A stretch of DNA of 64,000 bases from Salinicoccus carnicancri Crm (GTDB lineage Bacteria; Bacillota; Bacilli; Staphylococcales; Salinicoccaceae): positions 310,001 to 374,000 of the forward strand of contig NZ_ANAM01000006.1 of NCBI RefSeq assembly GCF_000330705.1. The letters run 5' to 3'. The notes under the pieces were generated by a model. That model worked only from the letters and a program-made list of their open reading frames with translations, had not been told where the DNA came from and searched no databases. The translations under genes were made by a program, and so were the position numbers. Shown piece after piece: positions 11,811 to 61,240 of the stretch (position 1 is its first letter; each line of letters starts with the position of its first letter).

Positions 11811-14800
11811 ATGGTAGATGAGGTTAGAGGCTTTAATATAGAACTCGGTCTGGATCATGCAGGCGTCGATAAAGGACTTAAGGATCTGCAACGGCAGATG
11901 AAAATCACAAACAGTGAGCTTGATAAGAACCTGTCCGCATTTCAACGTGGCGAGCAGTCTATGGAGCGTTATGAGGCGACGATTGAAGGCCTTAATCGCA
12001 AGATGAATGTGCAGCAGAACATCGTAGAAGAATCCAGACGAAAACTTGACTCGTTGAAGACTGCCTACGATAAACAGAAACAGGCACTGGATCAAGCTGG
12101 GCGTAATGTCGATAACCTAAAACGCAAATACGATACGTTGAATAAAACGTATGGCGAAGGTGCTAAAGAGCTTCGGGAATCTGAAAAAAGATTGAAATCT
12201 GTTGAAGCTGAATTTGATAAACTGTCTACTGCAACGGAGAAAGCTACCAAAGAGTATGAGAAAGTTACTCGGGAATTCGGGGAAGGCTCCAAAGAGTCGC
12301 AAGAAGCCGGCAGAGCTTTGAAAAAGCAAACCGATGAACTCCAAACTTTAACATTTGAAGTTGGCGATGCGCGAAAAGAATATGGCTTACTCAATAAGCA
12401 ATATGGCGAAGGCTCCAAAGAATTAAGGGAGTCTGAAAAAGCACTATCAAGTGCAGAAGGTGAATACGGCAAGCTCAGCAAAGCTGTAGAAAAGACGTCC
12501 AAGGAAATTGACAATTCAGAGTTTTCTCTGAACAAAGCTGAACGTGAGTTGAATAAAATCCGTGGCAGTCTAGATCGTACTACGCAGAATATGCAGGAAT
12601 TCCAACGGGAGCAAGAAGAAAACAATCGCACACTTGTAAAATTTGGCCGTGGGCTGCAGGATGGCGCAGATCATTTGGATAAATTCGGCGACCAGATGGA
12701 CACAGTAGCTGAGAAGTCTGCATTACTCAGTGCTGTAGTGGCCGGTATTGGCATCTTTGCGGGGTCCAGCGCGTTATCAATGGAAAACTCCACAGTAAGG
12801 ATGCAGAACAGCCTGGGGCTTACAGAAGATGCGGCTGCAGATCTCGCAGAAACATCGAAACGTATTTATGAAGACGGTTTCGGAGATTCGCTCGAGGAAG
12901 TGGATAGTGCGCTTTTGCAAGTTCGTCAGAATATCCGCGATCTGAATGATGAAGATTTAGAAAATATCACTCAAAAGGCACTTATCTTATCAAATACTTT
13001 TGATACAGATGTGAATGAAGTGACCAGAGCCGCCAATAACCTGATGGCCGGGTTCGGTATCGAAGCCGATGAAGCTTTTGATTTGATGGCTCATGGCGCT
13101 CAGAATGGTTTGAACTTCTCGAATGAGCTATTCGATAACCTAAGTGAGTATTCCACACTCTTCGGGACCATGGGATATAGTGCTGAGGAATACTTCCAGC
13201 TGCTTCAAGCTGGTCTCGATGCCGGTGCGTACAACTTGGATTACATTAACGATGTGATGAAGGAATTCCAGATTCGCATTAAAGACGGCTCCAAAGGCAC
13301 AAGCGAAGCCATGGCTCAAATGAGCGAAGAAACACAAGGTGTATGGCAGTCCTTCCTTGATGGGGGAGCTACTGTGAAAGATGTTATGGCTGCAGTGACT
13401 GGTGATCTGGAAGGCATGGAAGACCAGACGAAAGCCAATGAGCTTGGTGTTCAGCTCTTTGGAACGAAATTTGAAGATCTCGAAGCCGAAGCAGTATATG
13501 CCCTGGGCAATGTAGACGGTGAACTGGAAGGCGTAAACGGCACGATGGATGAGATGGGAAGGAATATGGAAGAAAGCATCTCTCAACGTGCCCTGAGCTT
13601 ATGGCGTGAAGCGAAAGACACCTTGATGCCACTTGGAGAAACACTGCTTGATGTGGCAGAAGATGCGCTTCCGGCATTCGAAAGAGCCATACAGACTACG
13701 ACAGACACTATTGAAGACATGGAGCCCGAAACGCTCAAGAGTATCGCTGCGCTTGGCGGATTCTTGGTTATTGCTACACCAGTGGCAAAGGCATTCTCTG
13801 TCATCGCTAAAGGTGCTGCGCCTGTTATCAGAGGTGTGGGCAAGGTCACTGAAAAGTTGGGTAAGTTTGATGGCGGTGCTGCAAGAGCAGCAGGCTCTGC
13901 CGGTTTATTGGCAGGTGGTGCCGGAAAACTTGCCGGGGCCGTTGGATTACTGAATAACCCACTCGGATGGGCAGTCGGATTGGTTGCTGCAGTCGGTGGC
14001 GGATTCGCTATTGCCTACGACAAAGTGGACTGGTTCCGCAATAGTGTGGATCTTGCATTTGAAACGATGACTATATTCGCAGAAGGCATCTATGAGATGA
14101 CCGCTCTGCCGTGGTTAGGCGAGCAATTCGGCAACCTGTGGGATAAAACAGAAGGCTTCAGAGAGTCTGTAACACTTACGATGGATGCGGTCGGTGCTGC
14201 TATTGGGGACACTTTCAATGAAAAAATCGTTGAACCATTCGAGAATTTCAAGGCAATGCATCGCGAAGCCGGTGAATCTGTAGATGTATTTGAGGAAGGC
14301 GTTTCAGAGGCAACCACACTCGCACTTGAGGATTACGTCAACTTCTCTGTCAACGCCAAACTTGCGTTGGACGAACTTTATTATGGCCAACAGGAAGTCA
14401 CACAGGCGCAAGTTGAAGATGTCCAGGAGAAATATTCTCTCATGAATGAAGAAGCCCTCCTGAAGCTCCAGGAACGTCGTGAGAACGAATTGGCAGAGCT
14501 TCAATTCCTTTTCGAAGAAACGGGCGTCCTTAATGATATAGAGCGTGAGCGCATCCTTGAAAAGACCAACGCACATTACAATACAGAAGAAGATCAACTC
14601 AATCAGAAGAATGAAAGAATCCAGGAGATTATTGCCCTGGCTATGGAAACAGAAGGCGGATTGCAATCTCATCATTATGAACAGATTGAAATGCTCCAGA
14701 ATGATCATAATGAGCGGACTGTAGAAACCCTGTCTCAAGGCGAAATTGAGCAGCAGGCGATACTCGAAAGAATGCAAACAAACCAACTGGCTACATCAGA

Positions 14801-16649
14801 AGCTACCGTGGAACAGCTCATTGCAGATTCAGAGAAAGCTAAGAATAAAACTGTTAAAGATGCTGCAACCAAACGCGATGAAATCGTAGCTGAAGCGATC
14901 AGACAGAGAGACGAGACTGGAAACTTATCTGAAGAAGAAGCGCAAAAAATCATTGATGAAGCTGAAAAGCAATATAACGAAACAGTTAGAAATGCTGAAA
15001 ACAAACATGCTGATGTCATTTCTGAAGCTGCTGCCCAAGCTGCAGAACATGGTGTCATCGTGGATGGAGAGACTGGAGATATTCTCTCGAAATGGGATGT
15101 ATTTGCCATGACACTTTCCGGCGTGATGAACAACGTCAAAGATAATACGGTTCAGAAATGGAAAGATATGTGGGCAGAGGTCAAAGGCTGGGTTGAAGAT
15201 GGCGTCAATGGCGTCGCGAGACTTTACAACTGGCTTATGGATCAGCTCGGTTTGGATGGCGCGAAACTGAATCCGATAAATATTACAGGGTACTCCTCCA
15301 ATACACAAGGTGGATATACGCGTCTGCCGTCATACGCCACCGGAACAAACTACCACCCAGGTGGTTTGGCACTCGTCAATGATGGCGGCGGCCCTGAAAT
15401 CATTCAGACGCCGGACGGTCAAATGTTCATGACGCATGGAGAAAATGTCTTAACAGACATGCCTGCAGGTTCCACAGTGTACCCGCATACGAAGACAAAA
15501 GAAATTGTGAACAACATGATTCCGAAATATGCTGAAGGTACTGGCGGTTGGTTAGATGAATTAAAGAAGTTAAGGATTGGTATAGGTGCTGCTGCTTCGG
15601 CAACAGGGGACACTCTTGCAGGGAAAGCATCGTCAGCTTGGGATTCAGGAATGAGCAAAGCCGGAGAGGTCCTCGGAAAAGGTGCAGCTACGGCTACAAC
15701 TCTCGTTTCTGACGTGATGTCATACGCAAATAATCCAGGTGCACTTATCGAAAAGATGCTGGGACAATTCGGCGTTGTCAATCCATTGGGCGGACTGCAC
15801 GGCGAAATACTATCTCACATGATAGGAAACTTCACATCTGCACTTACAGATAAAGCCAAAGAGATGTTCGCAGCCACTGCCACACCGGTGCCGGGCATAC
15901 TGGATCCAAGCAACATCAGTTACCATTATGGGCACACAGCGAAGTACACCGCTGAGACCGGACGATACTGGCATAGTGGTGTGGACTTCCCATTTGTGTA
16001 TCAATCAGTACGGACACCGATTGGCGGTACAGTGACGCATCAGCCGTTCGATTCTGATGGGTACGGTAAATGGCTCACATTGAATAACGGTGGCACAAAA
16101 CTCACATTCGCTCACTTATCAGCCTATGGCACCTCAAACGGAGAACAGGTGGGTCCAGGCGATGTTATTGGTACGTCTGGTAATACAGGTTTCTCCACCG
16201 GACCTCACTTGCACTTTGAGTATGCAGATAATGGCAGAACGAAGAACCCAGCGCCATGGCTTGGCAGTTATGAGAATGGCGGTCTGCTGTCACAGCACGG
16301 CTTATACGAAGGCGCAGAAGGCAACAAGATGGAGATGGTTCTACCACTTACCAACAGAAATCGATCCATTGAATTGATGGAACAGGCGAAAGCATTGATG
16401 GGTATGAATAATCATCAGGCTGCTGCAGGTGGAGGAAATTCTGAAATCATCAGCAAACTCGAAGAGCAATTGAAAGTGATGAATGGCAGCCTGAAACATT
16501 ATAAACAGATGGTTGAATTGCTGATATCTATTAATGCCAAAGAATTACACATCGGGGATGACGAAATCGGTCAATCTACTGATAGATATAATCAACGTCA
16601 ATCATCAAAACAAAGAATGAAATCAGGGAGGTTAAACTATGGGCTTTAA
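11811..16649 (+). CDS. Tape measure protein with M23 peptidase domain
   Basis: At 1612 aa this sets tail length. Residues 20-290 are coiled coil with three copies of a repeat of about 43 residues containing YGEGxKELRESEK (near 112, 155 and 197). Then come tape-measure-type helices, hydrophobic stretches near 300-320 and 700-730, and a second coiled coil at 870-1090. Residues about 1373-1483 form an M23 zinc metallopeptidase, with HSGVD near 1388 and HLHFE near 1466. The peptidase would cut peptidoglycan during DNA entry. The start is ATG 11811 with AGGAGGGTG. Confidence 0.95.
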   Translation: MVDEVRGFNIELGLDHAGVDKGLKDLQRQMKITNSELDKNLSAFQRGEQSMERYEATIEGLNRKMNVQQNIVEESRRKLDSLKTAYDKQKQALDQAGRNVDNLKRKYDTLNKTYGEGAKELRESEKRLKSVEAEFDKLSTATEKATKEYEKVTREFGEGSKESQEAGRALKKQTDELQTLTFEVGDARKEYGLLNKQYGEGSKELRESEKALSSAEGEYGKLSKAVEKTSKEIDNSEFSLNKAERELNKIRGSLDRTTQNMQEFQREQEENNRTLVKFGRGLQDGADHLDKFGDQMDTVAEKSALLSAVVAGIGIFAGSSALSMENSTVRMQNSLGLTEDAAADLAETSKRIYEDGFGDSLEEVDSALLQVRQNIRDLNDEDLENITQKALILSNTFDTDVNEVTRAANNLMAGFGIEADEAFDLMAHGAQNGLNFSNELFDNLSEYSTLFGTMGYSAEEYFQLLQAGLDAGAYNLDYINDVMKEFQIRIKDGSKGTSEAMAQMSEETQGVWQSFLDGGATVKDVMAAVTGDLEGMEDQTKANELGVQLFGTKFEDLEAEAVYALGNVDGELEGVNGTMDEMGRNMEESISQRALSLWREAKDTLMPLGETLLDVAEDALPAFERAIQTTTDTIEDMEPETLKSIAALGGFLVIATPVAKAFSVIAKGAAPVIRGVGKVTEKLGKFDGGAARAAGSAGLLAGGAGKLAGAVGLLNNPLGWAVGLVAAVGGGFAIAYDKVDWFRNSVDLAFETMTIFAEGIYEMTALPWLGEQFGNLWDKTEGFRESVTLTMDAVGAAIGDTFNEKIVEPFENFKAMHREAGESVDVFEEGVSEATTLALEDYVNFSVNAKLALDELYYGQQEVTQAQVEDVQEKYSLMNEEALLKLQERRENELAELQFLFEETGVLNDIERERILEKTNAHYNTEEDQLNQKNERIQEIIALAMETEGGLQSHHYEQIEMLQNDHNERTVETLSQGEIEQQAILERMQTNQLATSEATVEQLIADSEKAKNKTVKDAATKRDEIVAEAIRQRDETGNLSEEEAQKIIDEAEKQYNETVRNAENKHADVISEAAAQAAEHGVIVDGETGDILSKWDVFAMTLSGVMNNVKDNTVQKWKDMWAEVKGWVEDGVNGVARLYNWLMDQLGLDGAKLNPINITGYSSNTQGGYTRLPSYATGTNYHPGGLALVNDGGGPEIIQTPDGQMFMTHGENVLTDMPAGSTVYPHTKTKEIVNNMIPKYAEGTGGWLDELKKLRIGIGAAASATGDTLAGKASSAWDSGMSKAGEVLGKGAATATTLVSDVMSYANNPGALIEKMLGQFGVVNPLGGLHGEILSHMIGNFTSALTDKAKEMFAATATPVPGILDPSNISYHYGHTAKYTAETGRYWHSGVDFPFVYQSVRTPIGGTVTHQPFDSDGYGKWLTLNNGGTKLTFAHLSAYGTSNGEQVGPGDVIGTSGNTGFSTGPHLHFEYADNGRTKNPAPWLGSYENGGLLSQHGLYEGAEGNKMEMVLPLTNRNRSIELMEQAKALMGMNNHQAAAGGGNSEIISKLEEQLKVMNGSLKHYKQMVELLISINAKELHIGDDEIGQSTDRYNQRQSSKQRMKSGRLNYGL

Positions 16650-17463
16650 AGTTTATGACAGTGAAATGAATGAAGTGCGCCTCCCTGGTGATACGTATCT
16701 GCATTATGGCTCTTATCCATTGAAACTAGAGATATCCGGATTCGATTATGAAAAGCGTGGAAGAAAAACTGTAGTAACAGGAAGACAAGCGCTTATCCGG
16801 GGTTTTATTATTTCATCCGATCCAATTGATATGGATATGAAAATGAGTAATGTATATGCGTTTTTCAGACGGCTTGGAGAGTTTTATGTAGCGAAAGAAA
16901 GTGAACCATTCAAGCTCTTGAAAGTTGAAGCTAATCAATCATACACATTGGAATCAGAAAACAATGGTGTGCTAACTGAATTCGAAATACCATTGACTGT
17001 TCAAAAGCCATATTTCAAACAATCCCTCCACACCACTTTAGACATCGACTCCGAAGGCATCCGCTTTAACGACAAATGGGGCTACGGTATGGGATTGAGC
17101 AGTGACAGTGGACAGTGGAAATATTCTTTCATCAACACTGATCCTTACTTTTATAATGCCGGCACTGAAGAAGTGAAACTCATTAAGCAAAAAGAAAGTG
17201 AGATTACTTTAATCTTCAATGGCAGTACTTTAAACGGACTAGTTGATATCGATGACGGTATAACTACATTCAAGTTATTTAGGAATGTCGTTGCGGGTGA
17301 TGTATTAAGAATTAAAGGGCATCAGATTACGCTGAATGGCGATAATGTGGCTGGGGATACGAATCGGCAATTCTTGACTGTTAAAAGAGGATGGAATAAC
17401 TGGGATGTCAGAGGGGTAACGGATTTTGAATTTAAGATAGATTACAGGTATTTATATGATTAG
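16639..17463 (+). CDS. Distal tail protein (Dit)
   Basis: Forms the hub ring between the tail tube and the baseplate. The 274-aa length and the N-terminal half with RLPGDTYLHYG-like start (MGFKVYDSEMNEVRLPGDTY), RGFIISSDPIDMDMK and VYAFFRRLGEFYVAKE match the Sipho_tail family. The C-terminal half has the jelly-roll-like strands of the family. It overlaps the tape measure by 11 bases, with AGGGAGG upstream, and is followed by the 31-codon frame at 17475. Confidence 0.85.
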   Translation: MGFKVYDSEMNEVRLPGDTYLHYGSYPLKLEISGFDYEKRGRKTVVTGRQALIRGFIISSDPIDMDMKMSNVYAFFRRLGEFYVAKESEPFKLLKVEANQSYTLESENNGVLTEFEIPLTVQKPYFKQSLHTTLDIDSEGIRFNDKWGYGMGLSSDSGQWKYSFINTDPYFYNAGTEEVKLIKQKESEITLIFNGSTLNGLVDIDDGITTFKLFRNVVAGDVLRIKGHQITLNGDNVAGDTNRQFLTVKRGWNNWDVRGVTDFEFKIDYRYLYD

Positions 17464-17474
17464 GAGGGATATAC

Positions 17475-17570
17475 ATGATAAGGAAATTAATTGAAAAATT
17501 AAGCCCTCGTAGAAAAAAACGAGGACTTAAAATAATTAGACCGGATAGTTATAACAGAATTAATTTTTAA
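17475..17570 (+). CDS. Very small basic protein, 31 aa
   Basis: An ATG seven bases after a strong AGGAGG, 12 bases after the Dit stop, encoding a Lys/Arg/Ile-rich peptide that ends IRPDSYNRINF. An inverted repeat (CCTCGT / ACGAGG) lies inside it and could serve as part of a terminator. The 3' end overlaps the leftward zinc-ribbon gene by 11 bases. I cannot assign a function. The strong ribosome-binding site is the main reason to list it. Confidence 0.4.
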   Translation: MIRKLIEKLSPRRKKRGLKIIRPDSYNRINF

Positions 17571-17820
17571 ACGCATCAAATTTTTGAGCATCGTAAAAAT
17601 CGGTATGACCACATTTAGAGCACTGCAAGGCTAAAAATGGGTAGTGCTTTCCGAATTCTTCCGGTTTCATCTCAGCTGAATCATCAAAAGGCAGCCTGAA
17701 TGTTGAAGGGTTGAATGATTTTTGAATTTGACAGTGCGGACACTTGGGCAGACCGATTTTACTTTCTAATTCAAGGGCAATATCGTCAAACTTTGGATTA
17801 TAATACTGTGACTCTCTCAT
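17560..17820 (-). CDS. Leftward zinc-ribbon protein, 86 aa
   Basis: A leftward gene inserted between Dit and the tail-fibre-like gene. It has two CxxC pairs (CPHC near residue 27 and CSKC near 69), a zinc-ribbon layout, with a Phe/Pro-rich loop between. The ATG at 17820 is preceded by GGAGGTG at the right distance, so the longer ORF starting five codons upstream is not used. It has its own promoter with a dyad across the -10. The role is unknown; a regulator or host-takeover protein would fit but is only inference. Confidence 0.6.
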   Translation of the reverse strand: MRESQYYNPKFDDIALELESKIGLPKCPHCQIQKSFNPSTFRLPFDDSAEMKPEEFGKHYPFLALQCSKCGHTDFYDAQKFDAFKN

Positions 17821-17831
17821 AAGTTTCACCT

Positions 17832-17861
17832 CCAATCTAATTACAGATTATACCAGATTGG
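17832..17861 (-). promoter_or_regulatory. Promoter with dyad operator for the zinc-ribbon gene
   Basis: On the minus strand TATAAT (17852-17847) is preceded by TGG, an extended -10. CCAATCT (17832-17838) and AGATTGG (17855-17861) form an inverted repeat centred on the -10. The upstream arm would not be in the mRNA, so a DNA operator is more likely than an RNA hairpin. Confidence 0.5.
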
Positions 17862-17883: not shown

Positions 17884-17913
17884 AGCATCTCACTTTTGTG
17901 AGGTGCTTTTTTA
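17884..17913 (+). terminator. Terminator before the M14 tail protein
   Basis: AGCATCTCAC / GTGAGGTGCT with a TTTT loop, followed by six T. Confidence 0.75.
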
Positions 17914-17935
17914 TTACTCAAAAAGGAGTGAGGAA

Positions 17936-20362
17936 ATGGCTAGAAACGTTATAGGATCAGAGCATGACGACGAAAACCGTAATAAGCATAATGATAACTA
18001 TAAGCAATTGTTTGATTTCATACCGCTAATAAATAATTTGAAAGAGAATTTGAATAACTTCCTGAATGGGACGAACGTTGTAAGCAATGGAATGATCAAA
18101 GACGGCGCCATTACCACAGCAAAGTTAAATAATTTATCGGTATCGACAGAAAAACTCGGAAGTCGCTCGGTGACGAACGAAAAATTGGCAGATGGTGCGG
18201 TAAATAATTATAAGCTTGCTAATAAATCGGTGACGCAATCCAAAATAGATGAAGGCGCGGTTGATTTAACGAAGTTTAGCGCCGAAGTCAATACCTATAT
18301 GGATCAAAAGAGTAATGACGATATTGACGTAGATTTTGAGCTAGGCGGATGGAATACAGGCGGAAGTAAAGTAACTGGAAGTAACCCTGTGAATGTACGC
18401 GCGATTGTGCCTATATTTTTGAGAAAGGGCATGAAGCTGACTCAAACGCCAAATGCTTATTATGAGTATGAACTCATTGAACGCAGTACCAGCGTTGTAG
18501 GCGACGGCTTCTACGTAGATCGTACAGGGTATATTCCATTCGGCACTGACTACACGATAGAGCGGAATAACTTCTACTATCTATTCATCAGACGTAAAGA
18601 CGGTGCAGTAATGACTGCAGATGATGTCGTTACAATAAACGCTCGTTTTAACAATATAGTGATGGATTACTACGCTCTTGTAGGCATTGATCATATAGGA
18701 TTCGAACTCGGCGGATGGAATACGGGCGGGGCGAAAGTGACTGGAGAAAATCCGGTTAATATACGCTCTTCTGAACCCATTTATCTAAGGGCCGGAGAGG
18801 AAATGAAACCGGGACACTCAAATGAATATATGTATGAACTATTAATAAGAGAAACGAACATACCCGCAGATGACAGTTATATAGACAGAACCGGAAAAAT
18901 GAACTTTGATAATGCTTATAAAGCTGATCATGACGGATATCATTATCTTGTCGTTCATAACAATGATAATCGGGCTATGGAATTATCAGATGTGAATACA
19001 ATTGATGATCTGTTTAATAATTACTCTGGAATCGATAAAACATATATCATAAATCTGTTGAATGAGTATGGATTAATTAGAGATGTAGAATTTGCAAAAG
19101 GCGGATGGAATACAGGCGGAACTAGAATAGTTAGTGATGCCCCGATAAACGTGAGTCCGACACAATTGCAAAACGTTCTTCCTGGTCAATCTATAAATTT
19201 CGTTAAAAATACCTCATACGAATATGAGCTGTTCCTGAGAAAAAATGACGCATTCGTTGAAAGAACAGGATACATGCCATTTGGAGATAGTTATGTTTTC
19301 GATGACAAATATGAAATTGCCATAAACGTAAGAAGAGCCGATCAATCGCCAGTTAATAAATCTGATGTCACAGAGGTTTCAACGCATTTCAGTGGTATTA
19401 GTCATAGTAAATCATCGGATAACCAGGAAGTGGTATCAAAATTCAGTGTAGTAGGGAATCTGAACGCTTACAATTCCAACGATATAGATAATTACTTCGC
19501 TCACCCGAATACGATGACTCCACAGGAATTTAATGAGGCGTTTATTTCATTATCTGATGAAAATAACGATATATTCTCTTCTGAGCTTCTAGGGCAAGAT
19601 GATTATGGATATAATATTTATAAATTTGAGACTCATCCGCATGAGATGCTGAAGTCTTCGGCCTGGAATACAGTTCCGACCGAAGAAACAGGAGAACCAT
19701 TGAGTATACCAAAGATAATCATTACAAGCGGGATACACGGCAGAGAAAAAAATGCGAACTACGCCGTGTATTATTTCTTTAAGCAGCTACTTGAAAACAG
19801 AGATGACGAGACGCTGAATACACTGCTCATGAATGTTCAGTTTGTAATCGTTCCTTTAGTGTGTCCTTCTGGTTTCGCTGATGTGACTTATGATAATAGG
19901 AACGGAATAAACTTGAACAGGGACTTTCCACCCTACGGGTCTGCATCCCAACCTGAGACTGTATTGTTAAAACAGGTGCTGGACGGGAATTCAGATGCAG
20001 ACTATCATCTGGACTTCCATAACCATACAGCACACGACACTGTAATAGGCTACTCACTTACCGATGATGATAGCTTGGCCAGACTAACTACTAATGCTTA
20101 TAAATACATTGGCAGACAATGGCAAATTAAAATTCCGGAGTTCCCCCAGGACAGAACTTATCAATGGGCGTACACATCTGGCGCGAATGTGGGTACCGTG
20201 GGTAGATACAGTCAAAGTCAGTTAGGCATTCCTTCATCTATAATTGAAACGGGCGTAGAAAATCCTTGGATTATGGAAGATAAGAATGGTGCGAATGCTA
20301 CACAAATTGGCGTCGATCTCCTGGCCAATACGATAATCGGAATTCTTCAAGCGAGAAGGTGA
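17936..20362 (+). CDS. Tail protein with three tandem repeats and M14 carboxypeptidase domain
   Basis: An 808-aa protein between Dit and Tal. Residues about 50-115 are short repeats of the AITTAKLN / SVTNEKLADGAV kind seen in phage fibres. Three domains of about 115 residues follow, each opening with GGWNTGG (near 136, 258 and 387) and holding a YEYEL strand and a (D/E)RTGxM/IPFG turn. Residues about 590-808 look like an M14 zinc peptidase: IHGREKN (His and Glu metal ligands), NLNRDF, DFHNH (third ligand) and IIETG (catalytic Glu). It probably binds and trims the cell envelope. The start is ATG 17936 after AAGGAG. Confidence 0.8.
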   Translation: MARNVIGSEHDDENRNKHNDNYKQLFDFIPLINNLKENLNNFLNGTNVVSNGMIKDGAITTAKLNNLSVSTEKLGSRSVTNEKLADGAVNNYKLANKSVTQSKIDEGAVDLTKFSAEVNTYMDQKSNDDIDVDFELGGWNTGGSKVTGSNPVNVRAIVPIFLRKGMKLTQTPNAYYEYELIERSTSVVGDGFYVDRTGYIPFGTDYTIERNNFYYLFIRRKDGAVMTADDVVTINARFNNIVMDYYALVGIDHIGFELGGWNTGGAKVTGENPVNIRSSEPIYLRAGEEMKPGHSNEYMYELLIRETNIPADDSYIDRTGKMNFDNAYKADHDGYHYLVVHNNDNRAMELSDVNTIDDLFNNYSGIDKTYIINLLNEYGLIRDVEFAKGGWNTGGTRIVSDAPINVSPTQLQNVLPGQSINFVKNTSYEYELFLRKNDAFVERTGYMPFGDSYVFDDKYEIAINVRRADQSPVNKSDVTEVSTHFSGISHSKSSDNQEVVSKFSVVGNLNAYNSNDIDNYFAHPNTMTPQEFNEAFISLSDENNDIFSSELLGQDDYGYNIYKFETHPHEMLKSSAWNTVPTEETGEPLSIPKIIITSGIHGREKNANYAVYYFFKQLLENRDDETLNTLLMNVQFVIVPLVCPSGFADVTYDNRNGINLNRDFPPYGSASQPETVLLKQVLDGNSDADYHLDFHNHTAHDTVIGYSLTDDDSLARLTTNAYKYIGRQWQIKIPEFPQDRTYQWAYTSGANVGTVGRYSQSQLGIPSSIIETGVENPWIMEDKNGANATQIGVDLLANTIIGILQARR

Positions 20363-20366
20363 TTAG

Positions 20367-22253
20367 ATGCTTTCAGTAAAATCTTTGGACGGGCGATGGT
20401 TTCCCGCAGAGGCACAAGTCCCACGTACCCGGGTAATTGGAGAGCGGGAAATATCGCTCTCTTTTTTACACTCTGAAATCAATGATGTCTTTCTTTCTGA
20501 AATTGAAACCGGATGGATCGCAGAGTTTCAAGGGGATGAATATTGGCTGTACAATCCGCAGGAGGACATACACGGGAATAAATCATTCGAGTGTCTGTTC
20601 GATTTAGTCAGGCAGGGTAATAAGGTATGGCACATCGATGATGTAGAAGATAAGTCGATGACGATTGAAAACAGTATCGGCCCGTTATTCAACGACCTCC
20701 CGGACTACACATTACAGATTATCGATAATTTCTATGCGAATACGATGAATTACTCTAATCGCCAGACAACGACTGAGCGGTTTTTGTATTTCATTGAACG
20801 ACACGAAGCCGAGTTTGAAATCCCCATCGGCAGTAAGACAGTGCAAATCAGGAATGAAGTCGGTACTCGTCGGGATGATCTGATGATTCATGAGGACGAT
20901 AATCTGATTGATTTGCAGTTGAATACACAGGATGACTCATTCTGTACTACGGTTACTGGTTACTACGATTTTGACGATGAAGGGAACCCACAGAAGTCTG
21001 TGATTTACCGAAGCAGCTTGGCTGATAAGTATGGAGATATCCCTGGGGAGCCGATTCTGGATGATCGTTACAACAATAGAGATGCGGTCTATGAAGCTGC
21101 AAGGAAAAGGCAAGAAAGCTCATATCAACTTTCGTTTGAAGTGTCCTCTGAATTATTTGAGACACCCGTGAACGAGGGCGATTACGTGCCTTTGGTTATT
21201 CCTTCGAAATCCATCAATATGCATATCCGTGTAGTGGAAATCAATGAACTATTTGATGAGGACGAAAATCTAATTGAAGCGACTTACAGCTTTGGGAATG
21301 AGAATATCAGTCAGCTCTATAGAAAGGCTCAGTATGATGCGCTGATGGATGTGAATGACATCTTGAGAGGAAAGAAACCACTGCCGCCGTCTGTGCTCCC
21401 TAAAGCGTTCAAGCGAGCATTTGAAGTAATCCGTGGGGATGATGATTCGGTCATTGAATATCGAAAAGATCGTTTAATCGGGCATCACGACAAGAATGCC
21501 GGCAATGCCGTGGAACTGAATGTCAGTGGTCTGCAATTTATCAGGAATGGCAATCCTCGTAGTGCCATCACTTATGAAGGTGTGGTTACTGAAGCATTGA
21601 CTGCAGGCACTATTGATACGAACCGGATTCGCATTGTGGGCGCAGAAGGTTTTTTCTATATCAGTGGCGATGAACTGATTGCACGGGATTATAATAACCC
21701 TGAGAAGTGGACAGAAATCAGACCATCGGGCGTAACGACGAAGGGATCCTTTACGAATCTGCGTCCTGATTACTTTGTAGATTCTAACGGCAAAGAGTGG
21801 GGCAAACAGATGGAGGACGGACTTACAAATAATGACGAAACGATTCAAAGGAATCAATTTATATACCCCGATGTCACATACTTTTCCGGTCAAAGGTATT
21901 ACTTGAATAATGCGATGGTGTCCATAGATTCTAATTACACTATAGAAAACTGCCATTTTACCCACAACAGAAAATTCTTGAAAATCGGAATCGGGATAAA
22001 TATGGAGGGGGATTCGGGTTCAAACAGGGTTTTGATAGATGTCGTAGAGATTTCCACAGGGCAAGTAGTGGAGTCAGTCAATGAATTTATTAGAGCGGCT
22101 GACTCCACAAAATGGTTGAATATCACTTTTGAAATGGGTGTTCCGGATTATGTAACTGAAAAAGCGTATCAGATTAGAATAGGTAGTACACTTCGGACGA
22201 CGACTGGAACATTAATAAGTGCGATTATAAACAGAGTTTCACAGTTCGGTTAA
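20367..22253 (+). CDS. Tail-associated protein (Tal / prophage endopeptidase tail family)
   Basis: A 628-aa baseplate protein. The N-terminal 350 residues follow the prophage-tail hub pattern: an early WFPAEAQ stretch, EREISLSFLHS, and the FFIERHEAEFEI-like region (here LYFIERHEAEFEI). A central DAVYEAARKRQESSYQ helix marks the end of the hub. The C-terminal part is beta-rich and includes GTIDTNRIRIVGAEG, typical of the connection to fibre domains, and a carbohydrate-binding-like end. The gene starts 4 bases after the M14 protein, with AAGGTGAT upstream. Confidence 0.8.
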   Translation: MLSVKSLDGRWFPAEAQVPRTRVIGEREISLSFLHSEINDVFLSEIETGWIAEFQGDEYWLYNPQEDIHGNKSFECLFDLVRQGNKVWHIDDVEDKSMTIENSIGPLFNDLPDYTLQIIDNFYANTMNYSNRQTTTERFLYFIERHEAEFEIPIGSKTVQIRNEVGTRRDDLMIHEDDNLIDLQLNTQDDSFCTTVTGYYDFDDEGNPQKSVIYRSSLADKYGDIPGEPILDDRYNNRDAVYEAARKRQESSYQLSFEVSSELFETPVNEGDYVPLVIPSKSINMHIRVVEINELFDEDENLIEATYSFGNENISQLYRKAQYDALMDVNDILRGKKPLPPSVLPKAFKRAFEVIRGDDDSVIEYRKDRLIGHHDKNAGNAVELNVSGLQFIRNGNPRSAITYEGVVTEALTAGTIDTNRIRIVGAEGFFYISGDELIARDYNNPEKWTEIRPSGVTTKGSFTNLRPDYFVDSNGKEWGKQMEDGLTNNDETIQRNQFIYPDVTYFSGQRYYLNNAMVSIDSNYTIENCHFTHNRKFLKIGIGINMEGDSGSNRVLIDVVEISTGQVVESVNEFIRAADSTKWLNITFEMGVPDYVTEKAYQIRIGSTLRTTTGTLISAIINRVSQFG

Positions 22254-23498: not shown

Positions 23499-23524
23499 AT
23501 GAATGAATTTAAGGAGATGTGGAA

Positions 23525-24994
23525 ATGAATTTAATAGAATTCTATGAAAATGACGGCTTCCGCATTACATCAGACCCCCGTAAGTATGCGAGTGGTATAT
23601 TCGGCAAACGGGATTACACTGTCAACGGCCACAATTATGACAGCTTCTGCGGTGGTTACCACAGGGCAGTCGATTTGAGCAATACGCATGGCGCGGATAT
23701 CAGGGCGGCAGACGACGCACTTGTGGCCAACGGCACAAGGGATTATGGCACATTCGGCGGGCAAGCCGTACTCATCTATGAGCGGCTCGGCATACAAGTC
23801 ATTTACGGGCATGTACAACGGCCGGTTAAACTTAAGCCGGGGCAACGGGTCAAAAAGGGCGATGTGATTGCCAAACAAGGCAACAGCCACAATCAGGGCG
23901 CCGGCGTATCAATGGCTTCTCACTTGCATTTACAGGTGCAGCATATTGAAGCACTGAATGAAAAAGACTTTACTTGCAAGGGGATTGATCCATTTAAAAT
24001 TGACATCGATAAACCGGCCAAGAAGGAGAAGCAAACCGTCAAGGTGGATAACAAGGTGCATCTTATCATTGCCGGTCACGGTAATCAGCGCGATGGTTCA
24101 TTCGACCCAGGCGCCACGGGATACATCACAAAAGGTGAACACAAATATGTCAGGGATGACCTGTTCCCGGCCATGAAGAAGTATCTTCCGAAAGGTGCAA
24201 AAGCCGTATTTTACGATGCTTTGAAAGTGTCTAATTACGGTAATCTGTCACAATTGGTTAAAAAGCACAACGCCGACCAGGTAACGGAAATCCATTTTGA
24301 CGCTCACAGAACCGGCTCATCCGCCCGAGGTGGTCACGTCATCATCCACAGTGGTTATGATCCGGATGAATACGACCTAAGACTGCGTGACTCCATACAA
24401 TCGATGGTGGGCGTTCGTTACAGCCATAAGGGGCACAAGGGTATCAGTGGCAGGAATAATCTGTACAACGTCAATGATGCCCGTCAGAATGGTATTGCAT
24501 ATCGCCTGATTGAACTCGGTTTCGGTACGAATAAGATTGATGCCGATATCATGACGAACAGAGTGGATGAGTATGCTGAAACGCTTGTGCAGTCACTATT
24601 CCTGTCCAGTGGCAGCGTGTCGAAAACGACGGTTAAACCAGCAGTACCAGTAATACCAGAAGAACCGAAGAAAGAAACGACAGCAAAGAAAACGCCATAT
24701 ACAGTGGGCGATTGGAAAAAGAATGCACACGGCACTCAATATATACAAGCGGTCGGTACGTTCACAGTCGGTAACACTCGTATAATGAGCCGGGCAAACG
24801 GGCCATTCGTAAGTAATCCTGAGGGCGGATGGTGCTATCCTGGGTACAAGATTAAGTACGCTTACCTGTGCAGACAGGATGACCATGTTTGGATTCAGTA
24901 TGAACAGAACGGAGAATGGTGGTTCCTGCCATATAACACATGGAACAGTAGGACAGGCGCGGTTGGTAAAAATCCGTGGGGAACATTTAGCTAA
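23525..24994 (+). CDS. Endolysin: M23 peptidase + amidase-3 + SH3b
   Basis: A 489-aa cell-wall hydrolase with two catalytic domains. Residues about 20-140 are an M23 endopeptidase (HRAVD near 46-50, HLHLQ near 133). Residues about 178-365 are an N-acetylmuramoyl-L-alanine amidase-3 (AGHG, EIHFDAH, ELGFGTN). A Pro/Lys linker leads to an SH3b wall-binding domain from about 392 to the end (GTFTVGNTRIMSR, VWIQYEQNGEWWFLPY). The start is ATG 23525, eight bases after AAGGAG. Most staphylococcal phage endolysins use CHAP first; here M23 takes that place. Confidence 0.93.
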   Translation: MNLIEFYENDGFRITSDPRKYASGIFGKRDYTVNGHNYDSFCGGYHRAVDLSNTHGADIRAADDALVANGTRDYGTFGGQAVLIYERLGIQVIYGHVQRPVKLKPGQRVKKGDVIAKQGNSHNQGAGVSMASHLHLQVQHIEALNEKDFTCKGIDPFKIDIDKPAKKEKQTVKVDNKVHLIIAGHGNQRDGSFDPGATGYITKGEHKYVRDDLFPAMKKYLPKGAKAVFYDALKVSNYGNLSQLVKKHNADQVTEIHFDAHRTGSSARGGHVIIHSGYDPDEYDLRLRDSIQSMVGVRYSHKGHKGISGRNNLYNVNDARQNGIAYRLIELGFGTNKIDADIMTNRVDEYAETLVQSLFLSSGSVSKTTVKPAVPVIPEEPKKETTAKKTPYTVGDWKKNAHGTQYIQAVGTFTVGNTRIMSRANGPFVSNPEGGWCYPGYKIKYAYLCRQDDHVWIQYEQNGEWWFLPYNTWNSRTGAVGKNPWGTFS

Positions 24995-28149: not shown

Positions 28150-28269
28150 ATGGAATGGGTTACACTGGTCAGCGATGTTGGATTTCCGGCTGCGATCACC
28201 TTCTTCCTCCTGTACAGGATGGAAAGCAAACTGGATGATCTCATAATATCCATCAGAGAGCTGCACTGA
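28150..28269 (+). CDS. YvrJ family protein, 39 aa
   Basis: A short protein with the family pattern SDVGFPAAITFFLLYRMESKLD followed by an amphipathic LIISIREL helix: one membrane segment and a short cytoplasmic tail. The function of YvrJ proteins is unknown. They usually follow DUF1659 and DUF2922 genes. There is no strong ribosome-binding site, so translation probably depends on the upstream DUF2922 frame. If that gene is broken by the prophage, YvrJ expression may be lost. Confidence 0.7.
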   Translation: MEWVTLVSDVGFPAAITFFLLYRMESKLDDLIISIRELH

Positions 28270-28336: not shown

Positions 28337-29455
28337 ATGAAAATTCTACATACTGCCGACTGGCACATCGGCAGAAGGCTCAATGGAACGGACCTGCTTT
28401 CTGATCAGATGCATGTGCTGGATCAGCTGGTCGAATATATAAAGGATGAAGGAATAGACCTCTGTGTAATAGCAGGGGATGTTTTCGACAGGAGCAATCC
28501 GTCGCAGGCGGCACTTGAACTTGTCAACGAGTATCTATACAGGATAAATATCGGGCTCGGCGTGCCTGTGCTTGCCATCAGCGGGAATCATGACTCAAGG
28601 TCCAGGCTGGATTACGGCAGCCGCTGGTTTGAAAAGAGCAATTACCATATGCGCACATCCATCAGGGACATACTGAAGCCGGTAGTCATTGATGACCACC
28701 ATTTCTACATGATCCCCTACATGGATGTTCTGGAAGCGAAGCAGTATTTCATGGATGAATCGATTGTTTCACATCATGATGTCTACCGCAGGGTTACAGC
28801 AGAAATCCGCAATGTGATGGATTACGGCGCCCGCAACATCCTTGTCGGCCATATGTTCATGTCGGATGCAAAGGCGAGCGATTCTGAACGGCCTCTTTCA
28901 ATCGGCCTGTCCGAGGAAGTGGGAACAGACCTTTTCACAGACTTCGACCTGGTCCTTCTCGGCCATCTCCATCATCCATTTGCGATCGCGCATGACTCTA
29001 TTTTCTACAGCGGCTCCCTGCTCAAGTACTCTTTTTCCGAAGTCAGGCAGCCCAAAGGATTCAGAGTGATAGATACCGGGGAGGAGATTGAATGCCGGTT
29101 TGTGGCGACTGAATCGAAGTTTGACCTGGTCCACTACAAAGGCAGCTATGATGAGGTCATAAACGAAAAAGTCACTTTCCGGGACAAAAATGCATATTTC
29201 AAATTTGAACTCACGGGTCTTGAGACCATCAACGATCCGATGGCGAAAATCAAGATGATATATCCAAATACACTGGAGCTCCGGCCGGTGACAGAGGTCC
29301 GGGGAAACAGCATGAGCAAAGTGGATGTCAACCGCTCAAGCGACAGGGAGATATTTGATGCATTCATCGCACAGGTGCACGGGAGTGAACTCACAGAATA
29401 TCAGCAGGGGTTATTCAAACAACTATTCAAAGGTGATATAGATGAAACCGATTAG
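28337..29455 (+). CDS. sbcD: Exonuclease SbcCD subunit D
   Basis: The nuclease subunit of the SbcCD (Mre11-Rad50-like) complex, which opens hairpins and trims DNA ends. The calcineurin-type phosphoesterase motifs are clear: DWHIGR near residue 8, GDVFDRSNP near 47, SGNHDS near 83, VGHMF near 169 and LGHLHHP near 212. The 372-aa length is usual. The start is ATG 28337 with GAGGTG upstream. It overlaps sbcC by 14 bases. This is the first clear host gene to the right of the prophage. Confidence 0.95.
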   Translation: MKILHTADWHIGRRLNGTDLLSDQMHVLDQLVEYIKDEGIDLCVIAGDVFDRSNPSQAALELVNEYLYRINIGLGVPVLAISGNHDSRSRLDYGSRWFEKSNYHMRTSIRDILKPVVIDDHHFYMIPYMDVLEAKQYFMDESIVSHHDVYRRVTAEIRNVMDYGARNILVGHMFMSDAKASDSERPLSIGLSEEVGTDLFTDFDLVLLGHLHHPFAIAHDSIFYSGSLLKYSFSEVRQPKGFRVIDTGEEIECRFVATESKFDLVHYKGSYDEVINEKVTFRDKNAYFKFELTGLETINDPMAKIKMIYPNTLELRPVTEVRGNSMSKVDVNRSSDREIFDAFIAQVHGSELTEYQQGLFKQLFKGDIDETD

Positions 29456-55651: not shown

Positions 55652-55671
55652 TGAAAACAATCAAATAATTC

Positions 55672-55815
55672 ATTTATCCAGAGAAGTGGAGGGATCAGGC
55701 CCTGTGAAGCTTCAGCAGCGGACTCGGTTGGGTACTGTGCTAAATCCTGCAGGCAGAGGCCTGGCAGATAGAATCTAAACACCCATCTGCCGATGATCAT
55801 GGCAGATGGGTTTTC
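55672..55815 (+). promoter_or_regulatory. SAM-I riboswitch (S-box) and terminator
   Basis: The aptamer shows the classic order: TTATCCAGAGAAGTGGAGGGA, a GGCCCTGTGAAGC segment, CAGCAGCGGACTC, then GTGCTAAATCCTGCAG, and the closing GCAGATAG strand near 55770. An intrinsic terminator follows: ACCCATCTGCC / GGCAGATGGGT (55781-55811) with TTTT. When S-adenosylmethionine is bound the terminator forms and metNIQ and the aminotransferase are shut off. Confidence 0.93.
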
Positions 55816-61149: not shown

Positions 61150-61240
61150 GTTGGTGAATCTGTAGACATCAACCGCACAATTATGGGTCAAAGTGACATC
61201 TGTCCACCTGTAGATGGCGTGTCTTATTAAATCAGGAGGT
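61150..61240 (+). promoter_or_regulatory. L21 leader RNA
   Basis: Between the promoter and rplU lie two hairpins: GTTG...CAAC near 61151-61175 and GACATC...GATGGCGTGTC near 61195-61223. This placement and form fit the L21 leader of Firmicutes, which is thought to control the operon by binding a ribosomal protein. The class is given by position as much as by sequence. Confidence 0.7.

Follow-up and report, generated by a model that had tools for sequence, protein, structure and literature searches.

A protein encoded in the tail module of a Salinicoccus carnicancri Crm prophage carries three tandem GGWNTGG repeats ahead of a C-terminal M14 zinc carboxypeptidase domain, and we somewhat favour the view that it acts as a tail-tip fibre with a terminal enzyme, in which the stem would be fixed to the baseplate, the repeats would bind a polymer and the M14 domain would trim the outer envelope. 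The gene, its place, its repeats, its M14 fold and its zinc site are established from sequence and prediction within a stretch of 64,000 nucleotides (contig NZ_ANAM01000006.1, positions 310,001 to 374,000; this whole stretch is hereafter called the window). Judged by sequence, the protein belongs to a widespread, existing class of phage zinc carboxypeptidases. Such genes were already known through their annotation as zinc carboxypeptidase or M14 peptidase, while the GGWNTGG repeats, by their sequence, are new and a tyrosine at a conserved arginine column is unusual.

Features of the M14 tail gene and its neighbourhood; positions are those of the window and residue numbers those of the protein read from the ATG.
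Feature	Position	Strand	Basis or remark
Tape measure protein with M23 peptidase domain	11811..16649	+	Pfam
Dit, distal tail protein	16639..17463	+	PHROG 33 E 1.6e-17; Pfam Sipho_tail below its cut-off
Small Zn-ribbon-like ORF in the gap between Dit and the M14 gene	17560..17835	-	Two Pfam matches, both below cut-off
Terminator-like hairpin and T run, directly 5′ of the M14 gene	17884..17907	+	
GGAG, likely ribosome binding site before the ATG	17925..17928	+	
Tail protein: stem, three GGWNTGG repeats, C-terminal M14 domain	17936..20362	+	808 aa, ATG start
N-terminal region, tail-fibre stem (suggested)	17936..18316	+	PHROG 892
GGWNTGG repeat 1	18317..18679	+	Motif at 18344
GGWNTGG repeat 2	18683..19054	+	Motif at 18710
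GGWNTGG repeat 3	19061..19435	+	Motif at 19100
M14 zinc carboxypeptidase domain	19451..20359	+	Pfam, predicted fold
H601-x-x-E604, first two zinc ligands	19736..19747	+	Alignment
Tyr652 at the usual Arg column, Arg655 three residues on	19889..19891	+	Alignment
N661-R662	19916..19921	+	Alignment
H695 in DFHNH, third zinc ligand	20018..20020	+	Alignment
E771 in IETG, general base, Glu270 equivalent	20246..20248	+	Alignment
Tal, Prophage_tail domain	20367..22253	+	Pfam Prophage_tail E 2.2e-13
Endolysin: M23 and Amidase_3 catalytic domains, SH3_5 binding domain	23519-24994		Pfam

The genome carrying the window comprises 2.67 Mb in 12 contigs, with a completeness of 99.98%. The M14 gene is also found, at 100% identity, on a 39,685-base IMG/VR contig, and the part of the window that holds it is a prophage. 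This prophage may end near position 28269, before sbcD; match coordinates place the end of the IMG/VR prophage contig at about 28269 in the window, and sbcD starts at 28337. A preliminary description, made from the letters of this DNA, had placed the gene between Dit and Tal, and both neighbours were identified as such by Pfam/PHROG. Downstream of Tal lie two holin-like ORFs and the endolysin. Lying in the Dit-M14 gap, the small Zn-ribbon-like ORF looks like an inserted extra gene. Terminator-like hairpins flank this ORF (17499-17530 on the minus strand, 17884-17907 on the plus strand); the number of terminator-like sites in the region (six) is near chance, compared with 4.3 (sd 2.1) in shuffled sequence. 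A SAM riboswitch (55671-55774) and a ribosomal protein L21 leader (61161-61234) were seen in the chromosomal part of the window.

An alternative GTG start at 17903 would extend the protein to 819 residues. Residues 44-127 match the tail-fibre family PHROG 892 (E 3.1e-17), which suggests that they form a fibre stem; no Pfam match to the N-terminal region was found up to E 0.01. The C-terminal domain matches Pfam Peptidase_M14 (PF00246) with an E value of 6.7e-11 (42.8 bits against a cut-off of 21.6), and a match to AstE_AspA (E 2.2e-7) likewise stands above its cut-off; residues 523-667 match PHROG 4722, a family of phage zinc carboxypeptidases (E 1.8e-14). Structure prediction from an alignment with 24 relatives from viral contigs gave a model of the M14 domain with pLDDT 85.7 and pTM 0.88, for which Foldseek returned 256 PDB matches at E 0.001 or better. 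The top match in VIA-align was procarboxypeptidase B1 (7eqx_C; Z 27.6, rmsd 2.5, 248 residues). A profile of the domain matched digestive-type carboxypeptidases at 1.6e-25 and the murein peptide amidase MpaA (5hxd) at E 2e-15. The structure comparison with M14 peptidases proposed in the preliminary description thus yields a carboxypeptidase fold with the zinc ligands kept, and together with the tail-module setting it supports the reading as a phage tail protein with an M14 carboxypeptidase domain. The kinship with DUF2817-like proteins raised in the same place did not emerge, as DUF2817 (PF10994) was absent among the Pfam matches of the protein up to E 1; one relative (L013) matches this family at E 0.0021, below cut-off.

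The expected M14 active-site set (HxxE, NR, the histidine of DFHNH and the late glutamate of IETG) is fully present by alignment, and all 25 aligned rows, the protein's own among them, share H601, E604, N661, R662, H695 and E771. In carboxypeptidase A numbering N661-R662 are by alignment the equivalents of Asn144-Arg145, the two residues with which M14 enzymes bind the C-terminal carboxylate. An arginine nine residues before this Asn-Arg pair is kept in most rows, and here its place is held by Tyr652. Among the viral rows, read by motif (the best 80 of 122, the window's own included), this column is arginine in 78/80 and tyrosine in 2/80, with lysine in YPHTV-1. Alignments to carboxypeptidase B chains put the column at Arg127, and by the row of an insect carboxypeptidase A it would lie three residues earlier; Tyr652 probably occupies the Arg127 position of carboxypeptidase A, an equivalence that is likely rather than certain because the alignments to solved chains differ by these three residues. 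Unless Arg655 takes over its role, the domain may have a changed activity on peptides, or none. With this caution over Tyr652, the M14 site is probably active. Deacylation of N-acyl amino acids may also be an option, given the AstE_AspA match.

GGWNTGG begins at residues 137, 259 and 389 of the 808-residue protein, and neither the motif nor near forms of it had a further match in the three forward frames of the window; none of 10,000 shuffles of the protein contained even one copy. The three tandem domains, first described as about 115 residues long, measure about 120, repeats 2 and 3 being 43% and 32% identical to repeat 1. Conservation extends well beyond the motif, with most of the 26 invariant columns outside GGWNTGG and some well away from it. 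The profile search proposed for this domain returned no sequence relative in the collections covered: the repeat occurred in IMG/VR at its own locus alone, in 0/156 other genomes of the order and in 0/397 others of the class sample; the 50,697 phage records gave no hit up to E 1, and profile-profile comparison with the repeats of the relatives (NLF/NIF type) gave no match. A weak partial match in one relative (L015; E 0.0014 among 80 M14 proteins, E 0.067 among 3,879 ORFs) was taken as chance.

Modelled from the three repeats alone, the domain is beta-rich at medium confidence (pLDDT 68.5). Six BFVD entries matched the model at E 0.001 or better, two of them nameless and four named as phage proteins, including Orf92 of Lactobacillus phage LP65. 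These best matches carry no tail-protein name, while some weaker ones do: a protein of phage Page matched at E 7.6e-3, and names of tail fibre or minor tail proteins appeared at E 0.028 and above. The Page entry is probably the tail protein encoded four genes before the Page M14 gene, because both are 730 residues long. No significant match was found among solved structures in the PDB (best Foldseek E 0.052, best Z 5.1). CBM chains reached Z 3.5-4.2 at most against this model of pLDDT 68.5, and no CBM family was among the Pfam matches of the protein. We infer that the repeat, new by sequence and in its model loosely resembling parts of other phage proteins, has diverged from a type of beta domain that many phage tail proteins share, and it is probably a binding module, which may act on the envelope as the preliminary description proposed.

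Relatives of the protein are numerous in phages. With the whole protein as query and the best place under 60% identity taken in each record, tblastn found matches in 34 of 50,697 phage records, several of which duplicate a single phage across GenBank and RefSeq; 31 matched through the M14 part and three, those of Synechococcus S-CBP3, through the stem alone. Annotation names a carboxypeptidase or M14 peptidase in 29 of the 31. In IMG/VR, 122 stretches encode a relative, the window's own included, of which we retained the best 80. Counting as C-terminal any M14 domain whose motif lies no more than 230 residues from the end of the protein gives 26 such cases among the 80, a number that includes the own copy, one copy cut by a contig end (L017) and a shortened one of staphylococcal type (L038). 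Around 29 of the best 80 loci, 114 neighbouring ORFs of 150 to 1,299 aa were scanned, with Pfam matches to Prophage_tail (11) and Sipho_tail (8) and PHROG matches to Dit (10) and a tape measure family (11). Among loci chosen for a suggestive ORF layout and checked by PHROG, the order Dit-M14-Tal was seen again in L003 (YPHTV-1), L013, L014 and L023, L013 and L023 being close kin. The idea that M14 is unusual as a tail lysin was not borne out in view of the many phage relatives in or beside tail genes. As to whether many characterised tail proteins of this kind were already described, those that we found were annotated records and not characterised proteins.

In a tree of 103 M14 domains, 41 viral and three genome rows formed one group with the protein inside it (support 99/97), and the remaining 59 genome rows fell outside these 44; the outgroup was made up mostly of cellular M14 enzymes among the matches listed, and the comparison holds for that sample only. 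The tree was built from 142 domain sequences, thinned to 103 at 90% similarity, without domains under 180 aa, masked stretches or other copies of the window gene. The viral label requires three changes on it, and the viral M14 domains may have a single origin. The genome rows inside the group are L091, L098 and L133, L098 sitting on long branches. The L098 gene (5866-6780) is a short M14 gene of Acinetobacter puyangensis that by eye lies beside surface-polysaccharide-like genes. Of the 33 genomes of the host's own family, one besides that of the host encodes a relative of fibre-like architecture, whose two repeats differ in sequence. The enzyme thus stays as the modules before M14 change.

Several named phages have comparable genes. 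In the Staphylococcus phages StB12, StB20, StB27, S-CoN_Ph18-25 and IME1323_01 the M14 gene likewise neighbours Dit and Tal; for StB20 and StB27 the records label it a tail protein with PF00246. These M14 domains are 26-33% identical to ours over part of the domain, but they lie in the first half of the protein and are followed by a C-terminal region, whereas the M14 domain here is itself C-terminal; StB20 and StB27 also differ in gene order, with Dit-Tal-M14 instead of Dit-M14-Tal. The zinc carboxypeptidase of Halomonas phage YPHTV-1 (UUG68604.1) likewise has repeats, two in number, before a C-terminal M14 domain, and its gene stands directly after Dit and before a gene annotated as prophage endopeptidase tail. 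It is 25.7% identical over residues 463-771, with repeats of another sequence type. Genes of Wzy_C type (O-antigen ligase family) and for an acyltransferase lie between M14 and Tal in this phage (L003, 7190-9518), a difference from our locus that hints at a surface polysaccharide theme and no more than that. These genes look as if they altered the lysogen surface. The Bacillus phages Page and Moonbeam also have a carboxypeptidase gene amid those for tail spike and tail proteins, with M14 in the N-terminal half and without GGWNTGG repeats; Pony, Pavlov, Pookie and poppyseed have similar carboxypeptidase genes by annotation only.

More distant comparisons come from published reports. According to the legend of a figure in a 2018 review, phages rarely produce carboxypeptidases (PMC6116005). 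A zinc carboxypeptidase domain of Clostridium phage phiCP24R, compared here by its entry in a review table, is listed there as a lytic-type domain previously unreported in viruses (PMC9234517). The clostridial bacteriocin Bcn5 has a predicted M14 domain that was likened to MpaA and suggested to aid wall passage (PMC9527704); it is an antibacterial protein and not a phage tail protein, and is compared here by its description. PghP and PghL (PF05908, MEROPS M86) are described as zinc enzymes with a carboxypeptidase-like fold and a surface polymer as substrate (PMC6506827), but they form a sequence family different from our M14 domain, and PF05908 is unmatched here. Mentions of carboxypeptidases in the phage JBD30 and DLP4 papers concern other matters and not tail M14 enzymes. 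No assay of a tail M14 enzyme was found in the accessible parts of the literature searched, a search with the original StB12/20/27 and phiCP24R reports outside its scope.

The preliminary description had included polyglutamate among possible substrates, and the M14 domain might cut gamma-linked polyglutamate of a capsule and so open a path to the cell, as thought for PghP of phage NIT1; we regard this as improbable. PgsB is found in 4/4 Staphylococcus genomes with a tail-type M14 gene and in 54/80 of the rest, in 2/2 against 2/8 genomes of a further family (f33), and in 3/4 against 41/394 genomes of the class sample, own genome included (P 0.005). In that sample the cut for tail type (E 1e-50) was set after seeing a gap from 1.4e-52 to 1.5e-20, and of its 53 genomes with an M14 match the 49 below the gap were counted as non-tail-type by E alone; in the host's own family one genome (G012) was left out of the tail type, as its M14 ORF has 372 residues, its neighbours are by eye non-phage and its tree place is among cellular rows. 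The tail-type match of another genome (L182 in G192) has an in-frame TGA stop, and this copy looks broken. Page and Moonbeam infect B. megaterium, which makes polyglutamate. However, the host genome lacks PgsB, as do all 11 further genomes searched in its genus (0/12), the gene is present in 0/2 tail-M14 genomes against 3/31 others of the host's family, and PF05908 is absent among the Pfam matches of the protein up to E 1. The class-sample figure rests on two genera, and stratification over three disjoint groups (own family, Staphylococcus and f33) gave P 0.06. In StB20 a separate annotated poly-gamma-glutamate hydrolase gene lies two genes after M14 (L005, 9644-10270), and because they are separate genes in one tail module, the two enzymes appear to be distinct tools. 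For a host without PgsB and a protein without a PF05908 match, polyglutamate is thus disfavoured as the substrate, although a link between polyglutamate and tail M14 genes outside the host's own family is no more than suggestive.

Action on the cell wall itself deserves more weight, even if we consider it rather unlikely: a stem-peptide carboxypeptidase could trim the C-terminus of uncross-linked stems or cut after D-Glu, thereby aiding local opening of the wall. The profile match to MpaA agrees with such a role, as does the wall-passage aid suggested for the MpaA-like domain of Bcn5, but the matches to digestive-type carboxypeptidases are stronger. Moreover, the wall is already covered by the M23 domain of the tape measure protein and by the M23 and amidase domains of the endolysin, and trimming of a free stem end alone would presumably leave the wall unopened. 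Loss of catalysis, with a weak or dead M14 fold retained as a binding domain, would account for a tyrosine at a near-invariant arginine column; the conservation of the zinc ligands, the Asn-Arg pair and the general base in every aligned row speaks against it, making this the least probable of the explanations considered. As a substrate, polyglutamate is less likely than a wall stem peptide or a glycopolymer decorated with amino acids.

For the tail-tip fibre with a terminal enzyme, which we prefer, we infer presence in the virion, trimer formation, repeat binding, catalysis and an order of action. The protein, probably a trimer, would be anchored to the Dit/Tal baseplate by its N-terminal stem, and the three beta-rich repeats would bind a surface polymer. 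M14 enzymes of the carboxypeptidase type remove a C-terminal residue, so an exo mode would be expected, directed at the end of a peptide or at an amino-acyl end; the terminal zinc enzyme may take off a residue whose carboxylate is free, either from a peptide or from an amino-acyl group of the outer envelope. With M23 in the tape measure protein and a separate endolysin, the M14 domain would be free for another layer, and its action could loosen or unmask the outer layer before the tape measure M23 domain opens the wall. Tyr652, the medium confidence of the repeat model and the AstE_AspA match count against this tail-tip enzyme, and the terminator-like hairpin before the gene puts a caution on shared expression with the tail genes.

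On a broader view, put forward tentatively, the phage M14 group would be a distinct class of tail depolymerase that acts in exo fashion, stripping amino acids or terminal residues from amino-acid-decorated glycopolymers and so altering the receptor layer, not cutting chains; swappable repeats would set host range, GGWNTGG being one specificity cassette. The comparisons above assemble a group of considerable size: M14 genes lying in phage tail modules, in which the parts preceding the enzyme differ greatly. Knowledge of the M14 substrate may point to an envelope barrier faced by phages of Staphylococcus, Bacillus, Stenotrophomonas and other hosts, and this is directly testable.
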